Virus record (IMG/VR): IMGVR_UViG_3300032893_000272 | Coordinates: 1 to 23,833 of that record | DNA: 23,833 nucleotides | Strand: one strand, 5' to 3' | Source of the DNA: a virus | Shown: positions 6,362 to 20,012 of the stretch, one piece after another | Layout: each line of letters starts with the position of its first letter | How positions within the stretch are numbered: the stretch's first letter is position 1 | Notes under the pieces: generated by a model | Database searches by the model: none | Told to the model about the DNA's origin: nothing | What the model saw: the letters and a program-made list of their open reading frames with translations, nothing else | Program-made: the position numbers and the translations under genes

Positions 6362-6420
6362 CGATCTTCTGCTACCGCTGCGGGCGCGTGGTGCAATTCC
6401 CGCATGAGCACAAGGGATGA
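6358..6420 (+). CDS. 20-aa CxxC...HxH zinc-finger micropeptide
   Basis: This ORF is only 21 codons long, but it starts and ends in ATGA overlaps with its neighbours (stop of the 97-aa gene, start of the cupin). GGAG lies 8 bases before its ATG. The peptide has Cys5-x2-Cys8 and His16-x-His18 (FCYRCGRVV, then PHEH), enough ligands for one zinc ion in a minimal knuckle. The perfect double coupling and ligand pattern argue for real translation. A coupling-only ORF that just threads ribosomes to the cupin gene is the alternative. Confidence 0.5.
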   Translation: MTIFCYRCGRVVQFPHEHKG

Positions 6421-6845
6421 TTCATTCTATCCTCAATGCGCTGTTCGGCAAGGCCGAAGAAATCAACGGACACGAACGATGCCCGACGTATTTATATAGA
6501 TGGCCGATTTTCAAGATGCGCTCGGGGGTTGCGGCTTATATACATCATTTCGTCGCCGACGATTGGTCGCTCGATCTGCACGATCATCCCAAGCGGTTTG
6601 TGACAATAGGCCTGAGGGGCGCCTACTACGAAGAAGGCCCAATAGGTGGTCGCTGGTATCGCGCGCCGTGGATTCGCACTTTTCCAGCAACGCACATGCA
6701 CCGAATTAAAGTTCCATCACAAGGCTGTTGGACTCTGGTATTCGTCGGACGTACTCGGCGCGCATGGGGTTTTTGGCAAGGCGTCCATTGGATTCCTTGG
6801 ATTGAATATGTCGAAGGCGACGAGGCTCGTAAATCATGCCCCTGA
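6417..6845 (+). CDS. Cupin-fold protein, 142 aa
   Basis: The sequence carries cupin-type metal ligands: His55-x-His57 in DLHDHP, a following Gly-rich turn and Glu72 (GAYYEEGP), then His93/His95 in ATHMHRI. It ends with the aromatic strand motif RRAWGFW seen in small cupin-like proteins of phages and bacteria. Cupins bind Fe, Mn or Zn and act as dioxygenases, isomerases or sugar/ligand sensors; the substrate here cannot be told. The start overlaps the micropeptide's stop (ATGA), and the stop lies 10 bases inside the terminase gene. Confidence is in the fold, not the reaction. Confidence 0.65.
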   Translation: MIHSILNALFGKAEEINGHERCPTYLYRWPIFKMRSGVAAYIHHFVADDWSLDLHDHPKRFVTIGLRGAYYEEGPIGGRWYRAPWIRTFPATHMHRIKVPSQGCWTLVFVGRTRRAWGFWQGVHWIPWIEYVEGDEARKSCP

Positions 6846-8422
6846 CGCCTCAAGAGCTACGGGCCGCCATCCGCGAAGACTATAATTTATTCTTTGCGAC
6901 GATGAATCCGCGTCTCAAGCTGGCGCGGTTCCAGCGCGAGATTGTCATGCCGGCGATCACGCGATTCGAAAAAGGCGAATGGTCACGCCTCGCGATTCTG
7001 CTGCCACCTAATCACGGCAAGACGACAGCGATCACGATCCCGATGCCTATGTTTCGCATGGGCAATCAGCCGGACAAGACCGTAATGCTCTTGTCCTATT
7101 CGAATCAACTCGCCGAGGACTTCGGCGAGAAGATAAAGACCGGCGTCAAGAGCAAGGCGTTCAGGTCAGTCTTTCCGAACTTCCGGCTGCGCATGGGCGC
7201 ACAGAGCAAGAAATTCTTTCGAACAGAAGAAGGCGGGTCGTTCTATGCCATCGGCCTCGGCGGTACGGTCGAGGGCAAGCGCGCGGACCTGCTTCTGATG
7301 GACGATCCGATCCAGAATATGCAGGAGGCCATGTCCGCGCCTCGAATGTCGAATCTCTATACGAATTTCGAGGCGGTCGTGAAGACCCGTCTCAATGAAA
7401 ACGGGCAGATTCTTCTGATAACTACCCGATGGTGTCTCAACGATTTTGTCGATCGCGTCATGGAGAAAGAGGGCGAGTTTTGGAAAATCCTCGCTCTGCC
7501 GGCCCAGATGGACAGTGGAGAATATCTGTGGCCCGAGCGTTTCCCGCCCGAGCACTACGAGAGCCACAAGCTGAATCAATCGCTCTGGAATGCCAAGTTC
7601 ATGCAGGCGCCCGAGCGCGGACAAGGGCCGTGGTTTGCCTCGCGTAACTGGATTCTTTGGTACGACAAGCCGCTTAGGCCGGGCAAATATAATACATACA
7701 TTCTGGTCGACCCGGCGCTGCGCAAAGAGGCCACCAGCGACCGAACGTCCATCATGGTCATCTGTACCGTGCCGGCCATTCCGCCATCTCACGACCCCGG
7801 TTTCATCCTGGCCGATTGGACATTGGACAGGCTCGACCCCGGTGAGCGGCAGGCCGAAATCATCCGGCTTATCAAAAAATGGAAGCCTCTCAAGGTCGGG
7901 TACGAAGAAGTCGGCCTCGGGTCGGATTCCTATCACCTGAAAAATGCCATGCTTGAGGCCCGGCTGGATACCTCGGTTATTCCATTGGGCAGGTCCGGGC
8001 CGTCGCATGGGCAATCAAAAGAGAATCGCATCGGGAATCTTGTTCCGGTATTTCGCAAGGGTCAGATTGTCATGCCGCGCCGGCATCTGGTGCGTCTCAA
8101 AAACGGCGAGACGATGGATTTAATCCGGTATTTCCTTGAGGAAGAATATGATCGGTACGCCGGGAAGCGTACAACTAGACACGACGACGCGCTGGATTGC
8201 TTGAGCCGGATTCTGGAACCCGAGATGTATTTCGACCATAGCGTACCGGGGCGCAAAGAGAAGTCGACGTATTACGAGCCGCAAGGCTCCTGGGTTGTGA
8301 ATTACGCTTTCGGGATGGGGCGCATCAATGACCGAGTACATGCGAAACTGGTTTCGGAAAGCCGCCGAGAAATGGGATGCGGAAGTGGCCGTCGGCGCAA
8401 CCCGCGTTTGCCAGAAATGTAA
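6836..8422 (+). CDS. terL: Terminase large subunit (ATPase and nuclease)
   Basis: The motor that cuts and pumps DNA into the procapsid through the portal. Visible motifs: Walker A LPPNHGKT (residues 56-63), Walker B LLLMDDP (152-158), coupling motif ITTRW (195-199), and RNase H-like nuclease acidic residues Asp292 (ILVDPA), Glu357 (GYEEVG) and Asp450/451 (RHDDALD). At 528 aa it has a normal length. The last ~30 residues (after GRIND) overlap the HNH gene by 95 bases and look atypical (GCGSGRRRNPRL), so this tail may be dispensable. The start overlaps the cupin stop. Confidence 0.95.
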   Translation: MPLTPQELRAAIREDYNLFFATMNPRLKLARFQREIVMPAITRFEKGEWSRLAILLPPNHGKTTAITIPMPMFRMGNQPDKTVMLLSYSNQLAEDFGEKIKTGVKSKAFRSVFPNFRLRMGAQSKKFFRTEEGGSFYAIGLGGTVEGKRADLLLMDDPIQNMQEAMSAPRMSNLYTNFEAVVKTRLNENGQILLITTRWCLNDFVDRVMEKEGEFWKILALPAQMDSGEYLWPERFPPEHYESHKLNQSLWNAKFMQAPERGQGPWFASRNWILWYDKPLRPGKYNTYILVDPALRKEATSDRTSIMVICTVPAIPPSHDPGFILADWTLDRLDPGERQAEIIRLIKKWKPLKVGYEEVGLGSDSYHLKNAMLEARLDTSVIPLGRSGPSHGQSKENRIGNLVPVFRKGQIVMPRRHLVRLKNGETMDLIRYFLEEEYDRYAGKRTTRHDDALDCLSRILEPEMYFDHSVPGRKEKSTYYEPQGSWVVNYAFGMGRINDRVHAKLVSESRREMGCGSGRRRNPRLPEM

Positions 8423-8867
8423 AATGGAAAAGCCGACCGTCGAATTTTATCCTGCCATCACGCGGCGTTGCCGGGAATGCCATTGTGCCGCTACTCGCGC
8501 ATGGTCCGGCCGAAATAAACCAAAGATGGCCGGCTACGCCCGACAATGGCGTCGGCGCCATGCCATGCGCCACAAGGAACAATACACGCGCTGGAGGGAG
8601 GCGAATCGCGAGCGTCTTCTTTTAGCAAAAGTGGAATATGAATCTCGCCGCCGTGCGCGGACGGCAATCGCTTTGCCCGCATCGGGGATTCTCGGTCGCA
8701 TCGCGATATTCGGCGGCCTGTGTTGGCTTTGCGGAGCGCCATGGGAACAGATCGATCACGTCAAGCCGCTGAGTAAGGGCGGCGCGCATCTGCTCGCTAA
8801 TCTTCGGCCAATTTGTCAAAAATGCAACCGGCGCAAGAGCAATCTGTGGCCGGTCGTAAATTACTAG
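8328..8867 (+). CDS. HNH endonuclease with extra zinc knuckles, 179 aa
   Basis: The C-terminal HNH/His-Me finger shows CWLC (Cys132, Cys135), IDHVKPLSKGG (catalytic His144), N158 in LLANLRPICQKCN, and Cys163/Cys166, a complete zinc-stabilised HNH. The N-terminus has a second Cys4 set (CQKC 28-31, CREC 48-51), joined by a very basic helical linker. HNH proteins beside terminases are known to act in cos/pac cleavage during packaging in many phages. A free-standing homing role is the alternative. It overlaps the terminase 3' end by 95 bases and has a GGGG site upstream. Confidence 0.88.
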   Translation: MTEYMRNWFRKAAEKWDAEVAVGATRVCQKCKMEKPTVEFYPAITRRCRECHCAATRAWSGRNKPKMAGYARQWRRRHAMRHKEQYTRWREANRERLLLAKVEYESRRRARTAIALPASGILGRIAIFGGLCWLCGAPWEQIDHVKPLSKGGAHLLANLRPICQKCNRRKSNLWPVVNY

Positions 8868-10182: not shown

Positions 10183-10349
10183 AACAGCGCCAGCGCGATC
10201 GCGCGCTGGATTCTCGTCCGGGTGCCAGCGAGGCGGATACGCTGCGCCGCTTCGCGTCGCTCCTTGATCATATTCCGACCGAGGATGAATTGCGGAGAGC
10301 GTTTCGTAGGATAGCGGAGGGGGAAGATGGGTACGCTCGGACTACCTGA
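10158..10349 (+). CDS. Small helical protein, 63 aa (TTG start)
   Basis: The frame extends back to an ATG at 10047, but that would overlap the previous gene by 136 bases. The TTG at 10158 with AGGG seven bases upstream is preferred. The product is basic at the start (GKFARQLKQRQRDR), then acidic-helical (DTLRRFASLLDHIPTEDELRRAFRRIAEGEDG). It overlaps the portal start by 23 bases and carries the portal's ribosome site. Function unknown. Confidence 0.55.
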   Translation: MGKFARQLKQRQRDRALDSRPGASEADTLRRFASLLDHIPTEDELRRAFRRIAEGEDGYARTT

Positions 10350-12528
10350 CGATCTGCCGCCGGCGGATTTACTCAACTCAATGCCCGAGTTCGAGGTCGG
10401 CGAGCGCACCGGGCCGCTCATCAAGATGCCGCCGCCGCGCACCCGGCCGCCGTCGCTGGATAAAGTCCCCGGTATACAGCGGCCCCTGACGCATCTCGTC
10501 CAGTGGATGCAAAAAGAAATGCGGGACTCCAAGCCGCATGTCGAGAAATTCCGCACACAGGCGATGGAATGCTATCGGTTCATCGCGAACAAGCAGTTCC
10601 GGGATTCCGATATAACGCTGATGCAGAATCGCGGGCGCGCGCTCGCGGCCTTTAACAACGTCCAGAAATTCATGCGGTTTGTCTCGGGCATTCAACGCCG
10701 GGCGCCCCTGGCGTTGCTGTATCTGCCTCTGGTGGAAGATCGGCAGCAACAGGCCGCGTATGCCGAATATCTCACGCGGACATCGGAGTGGCAGCTAAAC
10801 GTCTCACAGGCTCGCTGGCACCACGGGCGCGTGTTCGAGGATTTGCTGATCTGCGGCATGGCGTGGTCGGACCAATTCATCGACAAGCACAAAGACCCCG
10901 GCGGCCTGCCTGGCTATAAGCGCATCTCGCCTCTAGAGATGATGTGGCCGCAATCCGGCAATCAGAATCTTGAAGGTACGCGCTGGCGTGCGCGATGCAG
11001 CAATCTCCCGGTCGACCAAGCGATGCGTCGCTGGCCGGACATGAAAAGCTATATTCAGGCGTTTACTAGCTCGGCCGACATGCAGTATCCATCTCGCGAA
11101 ATGCCGAGTGTCGTCAAATACGTCATGCCCTATATCTGGGCGGAGCCCATCAACCGCATCGCGTCTTCCGGGAAGCAGCCGAAGAAGGGCGAGGCGGCCA
11201 TCACAGAATTCCAGTGGTGGGAGGACGAGATGGGCGTCTACTTCTACGATCCGGTCCAGCAACTTGATCGCTGGCTCCCGGAGCGCGGACCAAAGAATTT
11301 TTACAAATACCGCGATAACGTCAAAGAAATGCTGAAGGCCGAGATTCAGGATTTCGACCGCGTAGAAAAGCGGACGTTTTGGAGGACTTACTTACTCGGT
11401 GATCAATACATGCTGGAGATGCCGAAGCGTCTCCCGACAGAAGACGACTTCTGCCTCAACGCCGTCACCAGCAATTGGAACGAACAGGATAAGGTCTGGT
11501 ATGGCTTTGTCCAGGCGCTGATCAATCCCCAGGAATACGCGAACAGGTATTTCAATCAGCTAATCGAGATCATCGCGTATCAGGGCAAGGGCGGCGCAGT
11601 CTATGAGTCGGATGCCGTCGACGAAGGGCAGGCCAAAGAGCTTGAGATGAGTTGGGCCAAGCCGGGCGGTTGGACGCGGCTCAAGACGGGCGCGCTGTCA
11701 CAGGGCAAGTTTCGCGAAAAGAGCGTCGGCCAAGTGCCCGACGCCGCGCTCGCCGTTCTCCAGTTTGCGACGAAATCTATGGAGAATGTCACGGGCCTGT
11801 CTCCCGAGGCGTTCGCGCAGCCATCGTCAACATCGGCATCGGGCGCCTCACAGCGCCAACGCATGTTCGCCGGTCTGCTTTTGCTGGCCTCGGAATTCGA
11901 CAACTTCGCGCAGTTCAAAAAGAAAGACGCGGAAATCGCGCTCGCGCATCTCCGGTTGCTCGCGGACGATCGGCTTGTCGCGGTCGGCGATCCAGCCGAC
12001 CCGCAAATGCTCAAGCTGATGCGGTCGCCCTTCAATACGAAGACGGAAGTCTTCATTGAAGAAACGGACATGGACCCCACGGCGCGGCAAGTATGGACGG
12101 ATCAGGTAATGCAGATCGCGCCGGCGCTGATACGCACGGGTAACTTTCTGCCGGACATTCTCGACATGCTGATGATCCCGGCGAAATTCCGCAACAAGCT
12201 GAAGCAGTCGATCGCGCAGAGCGCGCAGCAGAAACAGCAAATGGCACAGCAGGGGCTTTCGGTCGGCGGCCGGGGCAAGGCGCGATCGGTCGAGGAAATC
12301 CAGGCGCACGTTCAGGGCATGCGCCAGAAGGCCGCGCTCGACTTTGCGAAAGCACAAGCCACGATGGCCGGCATGAAACGCGACGATCTAACGGCCGTGC
12401 TCTCGGGCCTGCTTGATGCTCACAATGAGGCGAGAGCCCGGCAGCAGCACAGCATGGAGTTGGCGAAGGGCGCGCTGGACATTTTCAGCTCGGGGATGCA
12501 GCCGGCGGGCGGCGGCGCGGGGCAATAG
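10327..12528 (+). CDS. P22-type portal protein, 733 aa
   Basis: The portal is the dodecameric ring at one capsid vertex through which DNA enters and to which terminase and connector bind. Length (733 aa, against about 725 for P22 gp1) and order fit. Recognisable stretches are CYRFIANKQF near the N-terminus, the core FEDLLICGMAWSDQFID, YKRISPLEMMWPQS, and the late ATKSMENVTGLSPEAF...SASGASQRQRMFA. The C-terminus is a long Gln/Ala/Lys helix (QSAQQKQQMAQQ...), matching the barrel helices of P22-like portals. GGAGGGGGAAG immediately precedes the ATG. The family call is from recognition, not a search. Confidence 0.85.
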   Translation: MGTLGLPDDLPPADLLNSMPEFEVGERTGPLIKMPPPRTRPPSLDKVPGIQRPLTHLVQWMQKEMRDSKPHVEKFRTQAMECYRFIANKQFRDSDITLMQNRGRALAAFNNVQKFMRFVSGIQRRAPLALLYLPLVEDRQQQAAYAEYLTRTSEWQLNVSQARWHHGRVFEDLLICGMAWSDQFIDKHKDPGGLPGYKRISPLEMMWPQSGNQNLEGTRWRARCSNLPVDQAMRRWPDMKSYIQAFTSSADMQYPSREMPSVVKYVMPYIWAEPINRIASSGKQPKKGEAAITEFQWWEDEMGVYFYDPVQQLDRWLPERGPKNFYKYRDNVKEMLKAEIQDFDRVEKRTFWRTYLLGDQYMLEMPKRLPTEDDFCLNAVTSNWNEQDKVWYGFVQALINPQEYANRYFNQLIEIIAYQGKGGAVYESDAVDEGQAKELEMSWAKPGGWTRLKTGALSQGKFREKSVGQVPDAALAVLQFATKSMENVTGLSPEAFAQPSSTSASGASQRQRMFAGLLLLASEFDNFAQFKKKDAEIALAHLRLLADDRLVAVGDPADPQMLKLMRSPFNTKTEVFIEETDMDPTARQVWTDQVMQIAPALIRTGNFLPDILDMLMIPAKFRNKLKQSIAQSAQQKQQMAQQGLSVGGRGKARSVEEIQAHVQGMRQKAALDFAKAQATMAGMKRDDLTAVLSGLLDAHNEARARQQHSMELAKGALDIFSSGMQPAGGGAGQ

Positions 12529-12547: not shown

Positions 12548-13156
12548 ATGGAAGAAACGGAAACGCCAGTTAAGAAGAAGCGTCGCAAGCGGCGACAATC
12601 GCAGCCGGTCGAAATCAAATTCGATCGACTCGTTCGCGCATGCGCGATTCTCGGGGAATTGAAAGAATTGCCGTGGACGCCGAAGGGCCGCAAGGCCTTG
12701 GCTGTTTTGACGAACGCCGTCGAAAGTCAAATCTTGGCGACTCCGGCATTGCTTTTTGCGCGTCTCGCAGCCGCGCAGAACGGTCACGCGGCGCCGGGCG
12801 GCCCTTCCCCCGTGCCGGCGCCCGTGACCGCCACCGTCCAGCCTGTGCCACAACCGGACAATCGCCAGCGCACGGTGGGCGCTGAGGCTCCGGTTATCTC
12901 CCTATCTGACATTGACCTATTTATAGCGGAGGAAACACCGGGTCGATGGACGCAATTCCAACTCGGGGCTCGGCTAGTGCCTGTGATCTTTCTCTCGCGC
13001 GAGGAATATGGGGCGTTGCGGCGCGACCTGGCGGCCGAGGCCGGCGATCTGGAGGGCTTCAAGGCCGACATCGCGAAAATCGTCCCGGATGATTTGGTTG
13101 TCCAGTTCTTTCAGAACGTCGTCGCGGTCTACAAGGGATGCGCAATTAGGGTATGA
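12548..13156 (+). CDS. Hypothetical protein, 202 aa, basic N-terminus
   Basis: Begins with a Lys/Arg cluster (KKKRRKRRQSQ), then a helical segment (residues 22-75), a Pro/Val/Ala linker (about 80-105), and a C-terminal alpha/beta part (VISLSDIDLF; FLSREEYGALRRDLAAEAGDL). GAGGGG precedes the ATG by four bases. It follows the portal by 19 bases and ends in an ATGA overlap with a zinc-finger gene. The two-domain, linker-joined design suggests an assembly adaptor, but no family is recognised. Confidence 0.6.
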   Translation: MEETETPVKKKRRKRRQSQPVEIKFDRLVRACAILGELKELPWTPKGRKALAVLTNAVESQILATPALLFARLAAAQNGHAAPGGPSPVPAPVTATVQPVPQPDNRQRTVGAEAPVISLSDIDLFIAEETPGRWTQFQLGARLVPVIFLSREEYGALRRDLAAEAGDLEGFKADIAKIVPDDLVVQFFQNVVAVYKGCAIRV

Positions 13157-13362
13157 AAAACGCGCCCGGTGTTAAGTGCCGGCATTGCGATTACATCGCA
13201 CGGCTGACAGAAGCGGAGATGAAACGCGGAGATACATGGCCGCGATTCTGGATGGATAATCATTTCCAACACAAACATCCGGAAGTGTGGCGAGAGATTG
13301 CGCGCCAGCGCGGGGCCGCCCGTCGGCGCGAGCGCGATATGCGGGTAAGGTTAGCGGACTGA
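13153..13362 (+). CDS. C2H2-like zinc-finger protein, 69 aa
   Basis: Contains Cys9-x2-Cys12 (VKCRHCDY) and His37...His40/His42 (NHFQHKH), a C2H2 zinc-finger arrangement with about 24 residues between pairs. An Arg-rich C-terminus follows (ARQRGAARRRERDMRVR). Such a protein probably binds nucleic acid. ATGA overlap upstream and TGATG overlap downstream couple it to the ATP-grasp gene, so it may be that enzyme's partner. That link is inference from adjacency. Confidence 0.7.
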   Translation: MKNAPGVKCRHCDYIARLTEAEMKRGDTWPRFWMDNHFQHKHPEVWREIARQRGAARRRERDMRVRLAD

Positions 13363-14639
13363 TGGCTAACGGACGCACAGCGCTGGTCTACGATTCGGGC
13401 GATTTCACGCATTTTGCGCAAGCCATCGCGCCGGGCTTTACTAAGACGTTCTACTTCTCCGAATGGATGAGTTCGCATCCGCATCTTAGAGACGTTATGG
13501 CCGGGGACATTCCCGGCCTCACGCGCGTCAACTGGTTCGAGAAATACATAGACCAAGCCTCGGTCATCATCTTTCTCGATTGCGGTGACGGCGACATGAT
13601 GACGTGGCTCCGGAAAAAGGGCTATCGCGTCTGGGGCTGCGGCCTGTCGGATGCCTTGGAGCTTGATCGGGTCAATTATCGGGCTGTTTTGGATCGTCTT
13701 GCGCTCCCGGTTGTGCCGGCGGACATCATCACCGGCATGGACGAATTGGAAAAATATCTCAAGAAGCCCGAGAACGAAGACCGATGGATCAAAATTTCGT
13801 TCTTTCGAGGCGACGCGGAAACTTATCATCACGAAACATGGTTCACTACACAGAATTGGTTTGAGGAAAAGAAAAGAGCATTCGGGCCGGGCGCGCATCG
13901 CGTCGTCTTTGTCTGCGAAAAGCCGGTTCCCGGCGTCGAGCCCGGCTATGACGGCTATGTAATTGACGGAATGTTTCCCAGGCTCGGGATGTGGGGATGG
14001 GAATATAAGAATCGGGCCTACGTCGCGCGCGTTCAGAACGTCGCGCAGATGCCGGCGGCCATTCGAATTGTCGAGGCGCTTGGGCCGGACTTGCGAACGC
14101 TCGGGATGCGCGGCAATTTCCACACAGAGCAACGGATCGCCGAAGATGGCGAAGTCTACATAACCGATCCGGCGACGCGCCTCGGAAGTCCGCCGGGCGA
14201 AATTATGGGGCTGCTGTATTCGAATTGGGCAGACATCATCATGGCCGGCGCCGGCGGCGAGCTAGTCGAGCCGCAACCGATCGCCGAGTACGCCGCCCAG
14301 GTCGTGCTCTACACGCCACACGCGGAGGATAACTTCATCGCATTCGACATTCCGGATGAAGTCGGCGAGCTATTCCGAATGCGCCGCGCATTCCGCGATC
14401 CCAAAGGCGTCTACTGGCACGTTCCGGATGGGCATTTGGATCAAGTCGGCTCGGCGCTCGGCTTTGGCGATACGCCCGAGGAAGCAATCCGCATTGCTGT
14501 CCAAAATGCCGAGAAGGTCAAAGGCTACAACGTCGAATTCGCGCCGGACGTGGAAGACAAGCTATTGAAAGTAATCAAGGACGGGGCCGCCGCCGGCGTG
14601 CCGTTCACGGACAGGCTATACGATGAAATGGTCGCTTAA
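13362..14639 (+). CDS. PurD-like ATP-grasp ligase, 425 aa
   Basis: Probably joins a carboxylate to an amine or other nucleophile using ATP. The layout follows glycinamide ribonucleotide synthetase (PurD): an N-terminal Rossmann-like part with FLDCGDGD (72-78), GYRVWGCGLSDALELDR (87-103) where PurD has its GxxVxG...AxLExDR element, and a VKIS-like strand RWIKISFFRGDAET (141-154). The ATP-site segment is YITDPATRLGSPPGE (266-280). The C-terminus is SALGFGDTPEEAIRIAV (364-380), like the PurD end. The start at 13362 overlaps the upstream stop (TGATG). Its substrate is unknown; nucleotide/DNA modification or peptide tagging of a head protein are options. Its place between portal and scaffold is unusual. 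Confidence 0.65.
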   Translation: MANGRTALVYDSGDFTHFAQAIAPGFTKTFYFSEWMSSHPHLRDVMAGDIPGLTRVNWFEKYIDQASVIIFLDCGDGDMMTWLRKKGYRVWGCGLSDALELDRVNYRAVLDRLALPVVPADIITGMDELEKYLKKPENEDRWIKISFFRGDAETYHHETWFTTQNWFEEKKRAFGPGAHRVVFVCEKPVPGVEPGYDGYVIDGMFPRLGMWGWEYKNRAYVARVQNVAQMPAAIRIVEALGPDLRTLGMRGNFHTEQRIAEDGEVYITDPATRLGSPPGEIMGLLYSNWADIIMAGAGGELVEPQPIAEYAAQVVLYTPHAEDNFIAFDIPDEVGELFRMRRAFRDPKGVYWHVPDGHLDQVGSALGFGDTPEEAIRIAVQNAEKVKGYNVEFAPDVEDKLLKVIKDGAAAGVPFTDRLYDEMVA

Positions 14640-14850
14640 AATGGTCGGGGCGCCCGATGCTCTCGATAAGGAATTTCGCCGGGTCCGTAACATGCCTTTC
14701 ATGGTCGCTGATTTGATCCGGTTCTACCTTAGCGCAGCCGATGGCGCCATGCTGGTTGAAACAACTGGCGAAATGACGCCTTTGAATGAATTGTCCGTAA
14801 CGATCACAATCAAGAGGGATGGAGGGGTAGCAGATGGCGCGCATAGATAA
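14623..14850 (+). CDS. Hypothetical protein, 75 aa
   Basis: Starts 17 bases inside the ATP-grasp gene with AGG seven bases upstream, and overlaps the scaffold start by 17 bases. A second in-frame ATG at 14641 is possible. It looks like a small alpha/beta domain (FMVADLIRFYLSAADGAML; ELSVTITIKRDGG). It carries the scaffold's ribosome site within its own 3' end. No family recognised. Confidence 0.6.
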   Translation: MKWSLKMVGAPDALDKEFRRVRNMPFMVADLIRFYLSAADGAMLVETTGEMTPLNELSVTITIKRDGGVADGAHR

Positions 14851-15850
14851 CGTCGAACAATGGCTGAAGACCGGACGGGTCCAACCGCCCTTGACGGCCC
14901 CTAAGCCGGAAGCAACGGAACCGCCGGACGGCGAAGTAGCTCGGCCGCTTGAAGGCGCCCCGGATGTGGTCGAGACGGGAGGGCCGCCCGAGATTGGAGA
15001 CGCCGATGCCGGTGCCGCACCGCCCGCAGCACCATTCGCAAAAGGCGAACCCGAGAACGCGCCTTTTCGCGAAATGCGAAAACTCAAGCAGCAAATCCGG
15101 GAGCTACAAGAGCGGATCGTTGCGGCTGGCGGAACGCCGGCGACGCCGGCCGTATCGGACGATCTGCCGACGATCGATACGCCGATTGAGCATTTCGATG
15201 CCCGGCTGAAGCGGCTCGAAAATGCCCTGATGCAAGAGCGCGCGGTCAATCAGAATCTCCAGTCGACGCTCTCGGCCATGAATCAGGAGGCCAATTACCG
15301 GCAGAGTCATCCTGATTACGATAAGGCGATGCGCTACCTGGAGAGTAGCGAACACAAGATTTGGGGCGACACGGGCGGCCTGACCGCGCTCGCGGCCCAG
15401 ATGCTTGAAGCGAACGAGGCGGCTTTCGAGCGCGAGGCCCGGTTACGCGGCGGAGAAACGGCGCCCGAGGACATTGCCCTGGAAGTCGCGCGGAATCAAA
15501 TCAGCGTCAACGGTCGCAATCAGCTTGCGGAGATTGCGCGCCGAACGGGGCAAAGCGTCCCCGAGGTCATCGTGAAGGCGGCGCGGGCTCGCGGATGGAA
15601 TCCGGAGGGCGAGGCTGCCGCTGCGCCGGCTAAGGCGATAGACCGGGTGCGCGCATCGGTCGAGCGCGGCCGAGGCGAGAGCTTGTCGGCGATGCAGCCG
15701 GGAAATTCTCCGGCGCCACGCCCGGTGATCCAAGACAAAGAGGCGCTGTCTGAATTTCTGGAGACGGCCGATCCGCAACAGCGCGCCGAGTTCATTCAGC
15801 GGCAGGATGCCGAAGACCCGCGCTGGTTCGAACGCATCTTCCAGCGATGA
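14834..15850 (+). CDS. Putative scaffolding protein, 338 aa
   Basis: Charged, Ala/Pro/Glu-rich and largely helical, as scaffolds are. A disordered start (residues 15-75) is followed by a coiled coil (REMRKLKQQIRELQERIV) and a second one (FDARLKRLENALMQERAVNQNLQ). Residues 155-250 form a helical domain, and the C-terminus is short and basic-aromatic (EDPRWFERIFQR), a type of end that binds capsid subunits in P22-like systems. GGAGGGG lies 6 bases before the ATG. Position after the portal and before the capsid gene fits, although an inverted cassette separates it from the capsid gene. Confidence 0.75.
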   Translation: MARIDNVEQWLKTGRVQPPLTAPKPEATEPPDGEVARPLEGAPDVVETGGPPEIGDADAGAAPPAAPFAKGEPENAPFREMRKLKQQIRELQERIVAAGGTPATPAVSDDLPTIDTPIEHFDARLKRLENALMQERAVNQNLQSTLSAMNQEANYRQSHPDYDKAMRYLESSEHKIWGDTGGLTALAAQMLEANEAAFEREARLRGGETAPEDIALEVARNQISVNGRNQLAEIARRTGQSVPEVIVKAARARGWNPEGEAAAAPAKAIDRVRASVERGRGESLSAMQPGNSPAPRPVIQDKEALSEFLETADPQQRAEFIQRQDAEDPRWFERIFQR

Positions 15851-18851: not shown

Positions 18852-20012
18852 ATGGCCGAAACCGTAATTGCGCAGAATGACCCGACCGCAGTAGTTGTCT
18901 ACTCCGAACGGGCCTTTTCACAGGCGATCTATTCGACGATCGCTTTCAAGCTCGCGGCAATGGGCCTTTCCGCGCGCGACCAGACGGGATTTGTCCAGTT
19001 CCTGTCTGAGACGCTGGCCGGCCCCGGCGATACGGTCAAATATGACCTGATTCCGAATGCTCTCGGTCCCGGCGTCCTCGGCGATGCTCCGGTATCGGGC
19101 TCGGAATTGTCGCTCTCGCCCGTACAGGACACGCTGTATATCAATCAACAGCGTAACGCGATCCTGCTCAAAGGCCGCATGTCGCAGCAGCGCATCCCGA
19201 TTTCGCTGCGCGATTCGGCCGTCGTATCAAACGCCAATTGGGGCAAGGAGATTCTGGATTACGGGCTCCTGAACCAGCTTGGCGGCAATACCAATCAGAC
19301 GAATCTGGCCTACGTCGGCAACAATGCGACGATCGCGCCCAGCGCGAATAACTGGATTCTGGCGAGCGGCGCGGCGGCGACTTCCGGTAACGAGACCGCC
19401 ATGACCGTGAGCAACGGCCTTTTCAGCCTGTCGCTCATTCCCCAGGCGGTTGCGCTCGCGCAAGGCCAACTCCAGTTCCCCATCAAGCCGGTCGAGATAA
19501 AGGGCGTCGAAATTCAGGGCGTCCTGTTCCTGTCACATCTGCAAGTCCGCGATTTGAAAAAGAATTTCAATCCCGGCGAGTGGGGCAATATCTTCGCTCT
19601 GGCTATGCAGGGTGGACAGGTCTCGGGCAATCCGCTTTTCACCGGCGCCATCGGCGTCTATGAAAACGTGGTCATGCACCAGACCCGTCGGGTTCCGTGG
19701 GGCGACGCCACACAGAATCAGTGGATGGTCTCTCCATCGCTGCAAATGGTCGCCGGCCCCGGCTGCCTCGGCAAAACGTCAATCGCGAGAGCGGTCTTCG
19801 TCGGCGCACAGGCGGCCACGATGGCTTTCGGCGGAGCGCCGAGCGACATGGGCGCGCCTCTGCGGGCCTCTTGGTACGAGGAATTGCTGGACGCGGGCAA
19901 CCAGCTTCGCATCACGATCGGCTTTATCTGGGGCGTCAAGAAAGTCCAGTTCCTGTCCCAGGATTACGGCATGATCACGATTTCGAGCTACGCGAGCCCG
20001 AGCGGATCGTAA
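18852..20012 (+). CDS. Major capsid protein, N4-gp56/DUF4043-like, 386 aa
   Basis: Forms the head shell. The translation has features of the N4-gp56/DUF4043 capsid family: a start like FSQAIYSTIAFKLAAMGL, GPGDTVKYDLIPNALGPGVLGDAPVSG, LYINQQRNAILLKGRMSQQR, and a late RVPWGD...ARAVFVGAQAATMAFGG with WYEELLDAGNQLRITIGFIWGVKKVQF. Length (386) fits. It follows a strong GGAGCGAGGGCGTAGGACT leader and starts its own transcription unit after the inverted cassette. Family recognition is by eye. Confidence 0.85.
   Translation: MAETVIAQNDPTAVVVYSERAFSQAIYSTIAFKLAAMGLSARDQTGFVQFLSETLAGPGDTVKYDLIPNALGPGVLGDAPVSGSELSLSPVQDTLYINQQRNAILLKGRMSQQRIPISLRDSAVVSNANWGKEILDYGLLNQLGGNTNQTNLAYVGNNATIAPSANNWILASGAAATSGNETAMTVSNGLFSLSLIPQAVALAQGQLQFPIKPVEIKGVEIQGVLFLSHLQVRDLKKNFNPGEWGNIFALAMQGGQVSGNPLFTGAIGVYENVVMHQTRRVPWGDATQNQWMVSPSLQMVAGPGCLGKTSIARAVFVGAQAATMAFGGAPSDMGAPLRASWYEELLDAGNQLRITIGFIWGVKKVQFLSQDYGMITISSYASPSGS

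Follow-up and report, generated by a model that had tools for sequence, protein, structure and literature searches.

Clusters of ATP-grasp, amidoligase and glutamine amidotransferase genes in phages are already known, as is the ATP-grasp superfamily itself, and the main survey of these clusters is reportedly that of Iyer et al. (2009). In the LUZ24-like phage UFV-P2, a 291-aa ATP-grasp protein belongs to the early module on the positive strand, where amidoligase, GATase and GGCT-like genes lie nearby (PMC3890496). The R2K clade (CDC123, DUF4343) lacks the linker Lys and carries a second Lys/Arg in the RAGNYA loop (PMC4431377). Phage SpeD homologues form another related system: the HTVC201P homologue is an arginine decarboxylase and other phage homologues are ornithine decarboxylases (PMC9992855), and His68 is reported to be essential in the AdoMetDC of T. 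maritima (PMC10407285). The main texts of the latter two papers mention neither ATP-grasp nor a ligase, and no paper joining ATP-grasp, pyruvoyl-dependent enzymes and phage was found in the literature searched. Here we describe a PurD-fold, late-module phage ligase family that appears to be undescribed. The family, its pairing with a SpeD-like gene and its shared C-terminal tail were not found in the literature searched, and a mention in Iyer et al. (2009) is possible.

The ligase locus in the window and the extent of the family

The window, which is the whole stretch of DNA analysed, is an entire IMG/VR record of 23,833 bases. The genes of its packaging-to-capsid region that concern us are as follows.

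6836..8422, + strand: terminase large subunit (phrog_38, 1.2e-72)
10327..12528, + strand: portal protein, P22 type (PF16510, P22_portal, 8.3e-50; phrog_156, 1.9e-55)
12548..13156, + strand: 202-aa ORF between the portal and the 69-aa ORF, whose start it overlaps (translation)
13153..13362, + strand: 69-aa ORF with a CxxC-X24-HxxHxH pattern, overlapping the ligase start (translation)
13362..14639, + strand: ATP-grasp ligase of PurD fold, 425 aa, P0004 (AF2, Foldseek and conservation over 101 sequences; Arg103 in the linker, Lys144, Glu186, Glu256, Asp269, Arg273)
14623..14850, + strand: 75-aa ORF, overlapping the ligase 3′ end by 17 nt (translation)
14834..15850, + strand: 338-aa ORF, called scaffold by position only
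18852..20012, + strand: major capsid protein (PF13252, Phage_capsid_3, 2.8e-48; phrog_334, 8.8e-54)

The order is therefore portal, 202-aa ORF, 69-aa ORF, ligase, 75-aa ORF, 338-aa scaffold-position ORF and capsid. No family match was obtained for the 202-aa ORF in Pfam, PHROG or NCBIfam, for the 75-aa ORF in Pfam or PHROG, or for the 338-aa ORF in Pfam or PHROG, and the last also had no phage match. The first-pass annotation had described the 69-aa product as a C2H2-like protein whose gene is coupled to the ligase. The cysteine and histidine pattern is present, without a significant Pfam or PHROG match, and the ligase ATG does overlap the TGA of ORF 13153-13362 (TGATG); no homologue of the 69-aa ORF was found in the related loci searched. 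The coupling was seen in this phage only, and a conserved zinc-finger partner was rejected. Elsewhere in the window, an HNH endonuclease ORF (8328-8867) overlaps the terminase 3′ end, and HNH genes also occur in the packaging-to-capsid region of the distantly related podoviruses L002-L004. A 142-aa ORF at 6417-6845 looks cupin-like by eye and has no Pfam match.

The whole-length window protein had no match in 50,697 GenBank phage records even at E 10, matched plasmids only at E > 0.7, and its peptide patterns had no match in IMG/VR. The family was opened by a degenerate DNA pattern around D-P-A-T-R-L-G-S-P-P-G-E, which returned 12 contigs, 4/12 being true relatives with 31-33% identity to the window protein. 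Alignment of these four with the window protein yielded 51 loci, and further alignment yielded 210 confirmed IMG/VR loci, 80 of which were kept. A profile scan across bacteria and archaea (84,980 genomes), for which alignment A3 was used, A2 being too diverse, gave five positives including Bradyrhizobium sp. YR681. A strong match was present in 2/266 Bradyrhizobium genomes. Rhizobiales prophages are among the bacterial genomes holding a family member, and in two Bradyrhizobium genomes the cassette adjoins portal and capsid genes. Searches of GenBank phages with three other members yielded at most a match of 48 residues (E 0.04). The ligase family is phage-specific. It comprises at least 210 contigs of uncultivated phages in IMG/VR and a few bacterial genomes, is unrecognised by Pfam, PHROGs and NCBIfam, and has no clear relative in the GenBank phage set.

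Fold and active site of the ligase

No significant Pfam, PHROG or NCBIfam match was found for the window ligase, and a plain sequence search of the PDB gave a sole match, which covered T. maritima PurD in its C-terminal part only (E 0.002). The AlphaFold2 model, built from 36 sequences, reached pLDDT 95.0 and pTM 0.92. When this model was compared with the PDB by Foldseek, the top 11 matches were all PurD/GAR synthetases of various organisms (TM 0.64-0.73, lowest E 2.4e-20); after them came biotin carboxylases, further PurD entries, PurK, PurT and amino-acid ligases of the BacD type. There were 651 PDB matches at E<=0.001, and among the 50 matches listed all were known ATP-grasp enzymes. The model contains the pre-ATP-grasp, RAGNYA and kinase-like parts of the superfamily fold. 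Predicted viral structures match it as generic ATP-grasp only (best TM 0.48-0.55), and the family profile matches PurD 2yw2 at E 2.8e-8. These results, together with the at least 210 relatives, bear out the first-pass annotation of a PurD-like ATP-grasp ligase, and the structure comparison with PurD proposed there found an ATP-grasp fold.

The purD model TIGR00877 had no match in the window at E<=10 and was found in 14/14 control genomes. The GGREH, KADGLAAGKG and PNTGGMGAYSP stretches of E. coli PurD have no counterpart in the 36-member alignment, and hhalign of the family against the single E. coli PurD sequence gave a probability of only 36%. Membership of the ligase in PurD was rejected on the TIGR00877 result and the absence of PurD's substrate and ATP-loop motifs. 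The ligase is nearest to the PurD branch of the ATP-grasp superfamily but is without PurD's substrate sites, and since the substrate motifs of PurD are missing, PurD chemistry is unlikely. Regarding the PurD-like N- and C-terminal features noted at first, the fold stands, including the PurD-type C-terminal part, but PurD's own N-terminal motif is absent.

Arg103, Lys144, Arg149, Glu153, Asp197, Glu214, Glu256, Asp269, Arg273 and Pro277 are invariant in 101/101 sequences, although identity between family members and the window's copy is only 23-36%. In a sequence alignment with E. coli PurD, as distinct from superposed coordinates, Arg103 would correspond to the linker Lys, Lys144 to the RAGNYA Lys and Asp269 to the Glu of ExN. 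The Asn position of ExN aligns with Cys or Thr in most members (D-x-C/T-x-R), by which the Mg-binding Asn would be replaced, and the glycine-rich ATP loop appears to be absent from the family. As for the ATP-grasp signature set, Arg103, Lys144, Glu256 and Asp269 are invariant in the 101 sequences and the ExN Asn is absent. The proposed check of the ATP-site residues found the catalytic positions kept throughout and two ATP-grasp elements missing. The window ligase is probably a working ATP-dependent ligase, because Arg103, Lys144, Glu256, Asp269 and Arg273 are invariant in 101 relatives. The replaced ExN Asn and the absent glycine-rich loop mean, however, that its chemistry could differ or be lost.

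Late-module setting, SpeD-like partner and shared tail

The positions of the gene in relatives were compared over 108 unique loci. Portal and capsid of the P22-like relatives are not closely similar to the window's, and gene order was therefore compared by function only. The upstream neighbour lies on the same strand in 100/106 loci, and in 71/100 of these it overlaps the ligase or ends <=20 nt away. In 53/108 unique loci, a portal, terminase, capsid, head-closure or tail gene could be identified within 6 kb, and the remainder have large neighbours without family matches or are short contigs. A P22-type portal is nearby in 34 loci in which the ligase precedes the portal. In others, L033 and L043 for example, the ligase has an internal-virion-like gene on one side and, on the other, a gene whose N terminus is of tail-fibre type (phrog_376 upstream; phrog_13893). 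In some loci, L101 among them, it follows unassigned ORFs of 1,300-2,400 aa, and in L036 it comes last, next to a convergent DNA polymerase gene.

The first-pass annotation placed the ligase between portal and scaffold. This order is right in the window, with scaffold assigned by position only, but the place is not specific in relatives, and a fixed place there was rejected since the position varies. The position is neither fixed nor random, mostly falling in late virion regions: the portal/TerL side, the internal-virion/tail-fibre side, or the last late gene. Of the two refuting signs named in the first-pass annotation, a fold other than ATP-grasp and a scattered gene position, neither therefore applies cleanly. 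The ligase is a late-module gene in the readable loci and not a fixed head-assembly gene, which agrees with the earlier view that it is foreign to standard head morphogenesis yet sits among virion genes.

Several neighbours were recorded in passing. A 1706-aa polyvalent-type ORF with a Kinase-PolyVal domain (L101:875-5995) overlaps the ligase start by 4 nt. The polymerase gene of L036 (12771-15497, - strand) encodes a uracil-DNA-glycosylase domain fused to a family A DNA polymerase. A HELxE protein of ~125 aa, k6, has no Pfam/PHROG match and is present in 15 loci, usually adjoining the ligase (L034:9615-9986, L052:9537-9914, L045:9599-9991 and 12 others).

In many loci a SpeD-like protein of 120-130 aa is encoded directly upstream of the ligase. 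It was found in 50/97 loci with enough upstream DNA, directly adjacent in 44. Three tested examples pass the cut-off of Pfam PF02675 (AdoMet_dc), the AF2 fold matches T. maritima AdoMetDC (the only four matches under E 0.001), and alignment with a pelagiphage SpeD homologue gave probability 95 and E 2.5e-8. The pyruvoyl Ser63 is kept in 57/57 and Cys83 in 56/56. Asp replaces His68 in 51/57, leaving the Ser63/His68/Cys83 self-processing and catalysis set incomplete, and because this His is essential in T. maritima AdoMetDC the SpeD-like partner may not self-process. In the ligase tree, a single 77-row set (support 99) takes in every SpeD carrier. The window belongs to a 24-row set (support 99) that has no SpeD partner; its branch is long and its exact neighbour unsure. 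A SpeD-like gene was looked for in the window and not found; the 69-aa zinc-finger-like ORF occupies the partner's place, which in relatives is taken by SpeD-like or other genes. In pelagiphage HTVC121P (L160:14541-14906), the SpeD homologue adjoins ribonucleotide reductase genes, with no annotated ligase nearby.

In loci that have a P22-type portal, or one of the small neighbours k3 and k5, 35/39 ligases carry a GxISxK-type C-terminal tail, versus 1/62 elsewhere; the regex was written after the tails had been seen, the 39-versus-62 split not being used in writing it, so that these counts describe rather than test. The same tail was present in k3 (22/25) and k5 (11/20), versus 19/1445 other genes (1.3% background), and as the loci showing it (L019, L020, L066, L161 and other P22-portal-type loci) are related to each other, the counts are not independent. 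The tail had no Pfam domain in the proteins scanned, and the window ligase is without it. In G016, a 7.15-Mb Bradyrhizobium contig, the full order is k3, SpeD-like gene, tailed ligase, k5, portal, scaffold-position gene and capsid. That three otherwise unlike neighbours carry one and the same tail suggests that they bind a partner in common, plausibly in assembly.

Proposed function and comparison with known systems

The reading we prefer, to which we give about an even chance, is that of a late-module, phage-specific carboxylate-amine ligase that takes its amine from the SpeD-like enzyme where present and yields a small conjugate or an amine-modified virion protein. We infer ligase activity, amide chemistry, amine donor, target and expression timing as follows. 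The ligase would activate a carboxylate as acyl phosphate with ATP and then join an amine to it. The SpeD-like decarboxylase, where co-encoded, would supply this amine by decarboxylating an amino acid, for example ornithine or arginine, an idea that comes from the action of phage SpeD homologues on those two (PMC9992855). For the window phage, either the host or a gene lying beyond the sequenced part may provide the amine. What is made, probably a small conjugate of the amine or else a virion protein modified with it, would be used during particle making. The first-pass annotation had suggested a nucleotide, the phage DNA or a virion protein as the target, any of which may apply. Against the preferred reading stand the replaced ExN Asn and absent glycine-rich loop of the ligase and the Asp at His68 of most SpeD-like partners; moreover, the window's own lineage (the 24-row set) is without SpeD partner and its ligase is without the tail.

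The ligase could instead act on virion proteins specifically (portal, internal-virion or tail proteins), attaching either an amine or an amino acid to their carboxylates at side chains or at the terminus, much as RimK modifies ribosomal protein S6. Its place beside virion genes in unrelated phage types favours this, as does the tail that the P22-like ligase has in common with two small neighbours, as if all were on a common assembly. On the other hand, to our knowledge the characterised PurD-branch enzymes act upon small molecules, and no target gene is kept alongside the ligase across phage types; we regard this possibility as doubtful. A bolder reading is more doubtful still: a two-enzyme cassette of pyruvoyl-type decarboxylation and ATP-driven attachment, recruited by the tail to the forming particle, might mark the virion or its DNA counter-ions with a novel amine conjugate.

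It is improbable that the ligase is catalytically dead and has a structural or scaffolding role instead. The lost ExN Asn and glycine-rich loop and the structural neighbours would fit such a role, but the charged active-site positions stay invariant in 101/101 sequences despite the low identity to the window's copy. A role in DNA base modification, with an amine-bearing group placed onto phage DNA, seems quite improbable. Polyamine-bearing bases are known in phages, and an amine-making partner with an ATP-dependent ligase could build such a group; the setting is nevertheless one of late virion genes, and no base-modification genes were recognised among the identified ligase neighbours. A diverged PurD, kept as a host-takeover metabolic gene for purine synthesis, is very improbable, for although PurD is nearest in fold and sequence, TIGR00877 recovers only the controls, the three PurD stretches are without counterpart and the hhalign probability to E. 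coli PurD is low.

The family is of interest because its charged active-site residues are conserved, because it stays in late virion modules across phage types that are unrelated, and because about half of its loci pair it with a SpeD-like gene. If the ligase makes or attaches an amine, chemistry would be performed during particle assembly.

Compared with PurD, the ligase has the same overall fold, the N-terminal pre-ATP-grasp domain, the PurD-type C-terminal part, the strand motif R-x-G-x-P and the linker E-x-x-K/R. It differs in having no TIGR00877 match, in its missing substrate and ATP-loop motifs, in the change of ExN to DxxxR and in its phage virion-gene setting. With the R2K clade it shares the positively charged Arg149 in the loop that follows the strand-2 Lys, and an atypical glycine loop; membership was rejected, although Arg149 is present, because the linker Arg103 is invariant, and there is no Pfam R2K match. 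The SpeD-like partner resembles the described phage SpeD homologues (PMC9992855, PMC10407285) in fold, in Ser63 and Cys83 and in a recognisable kinship to the pelagiphage type, but differs from them in the change of His68 to Asp in most members and in its pairing with a ligase. Like the LUZ24-like clusters, the family provides an ATP-grasp enzyme encoded by phages, for which amide-bond formation together with partner enzymes is predicted, but it differs in its length of 425 aa, its PurD branch, its late module and its SpeD-like partner.
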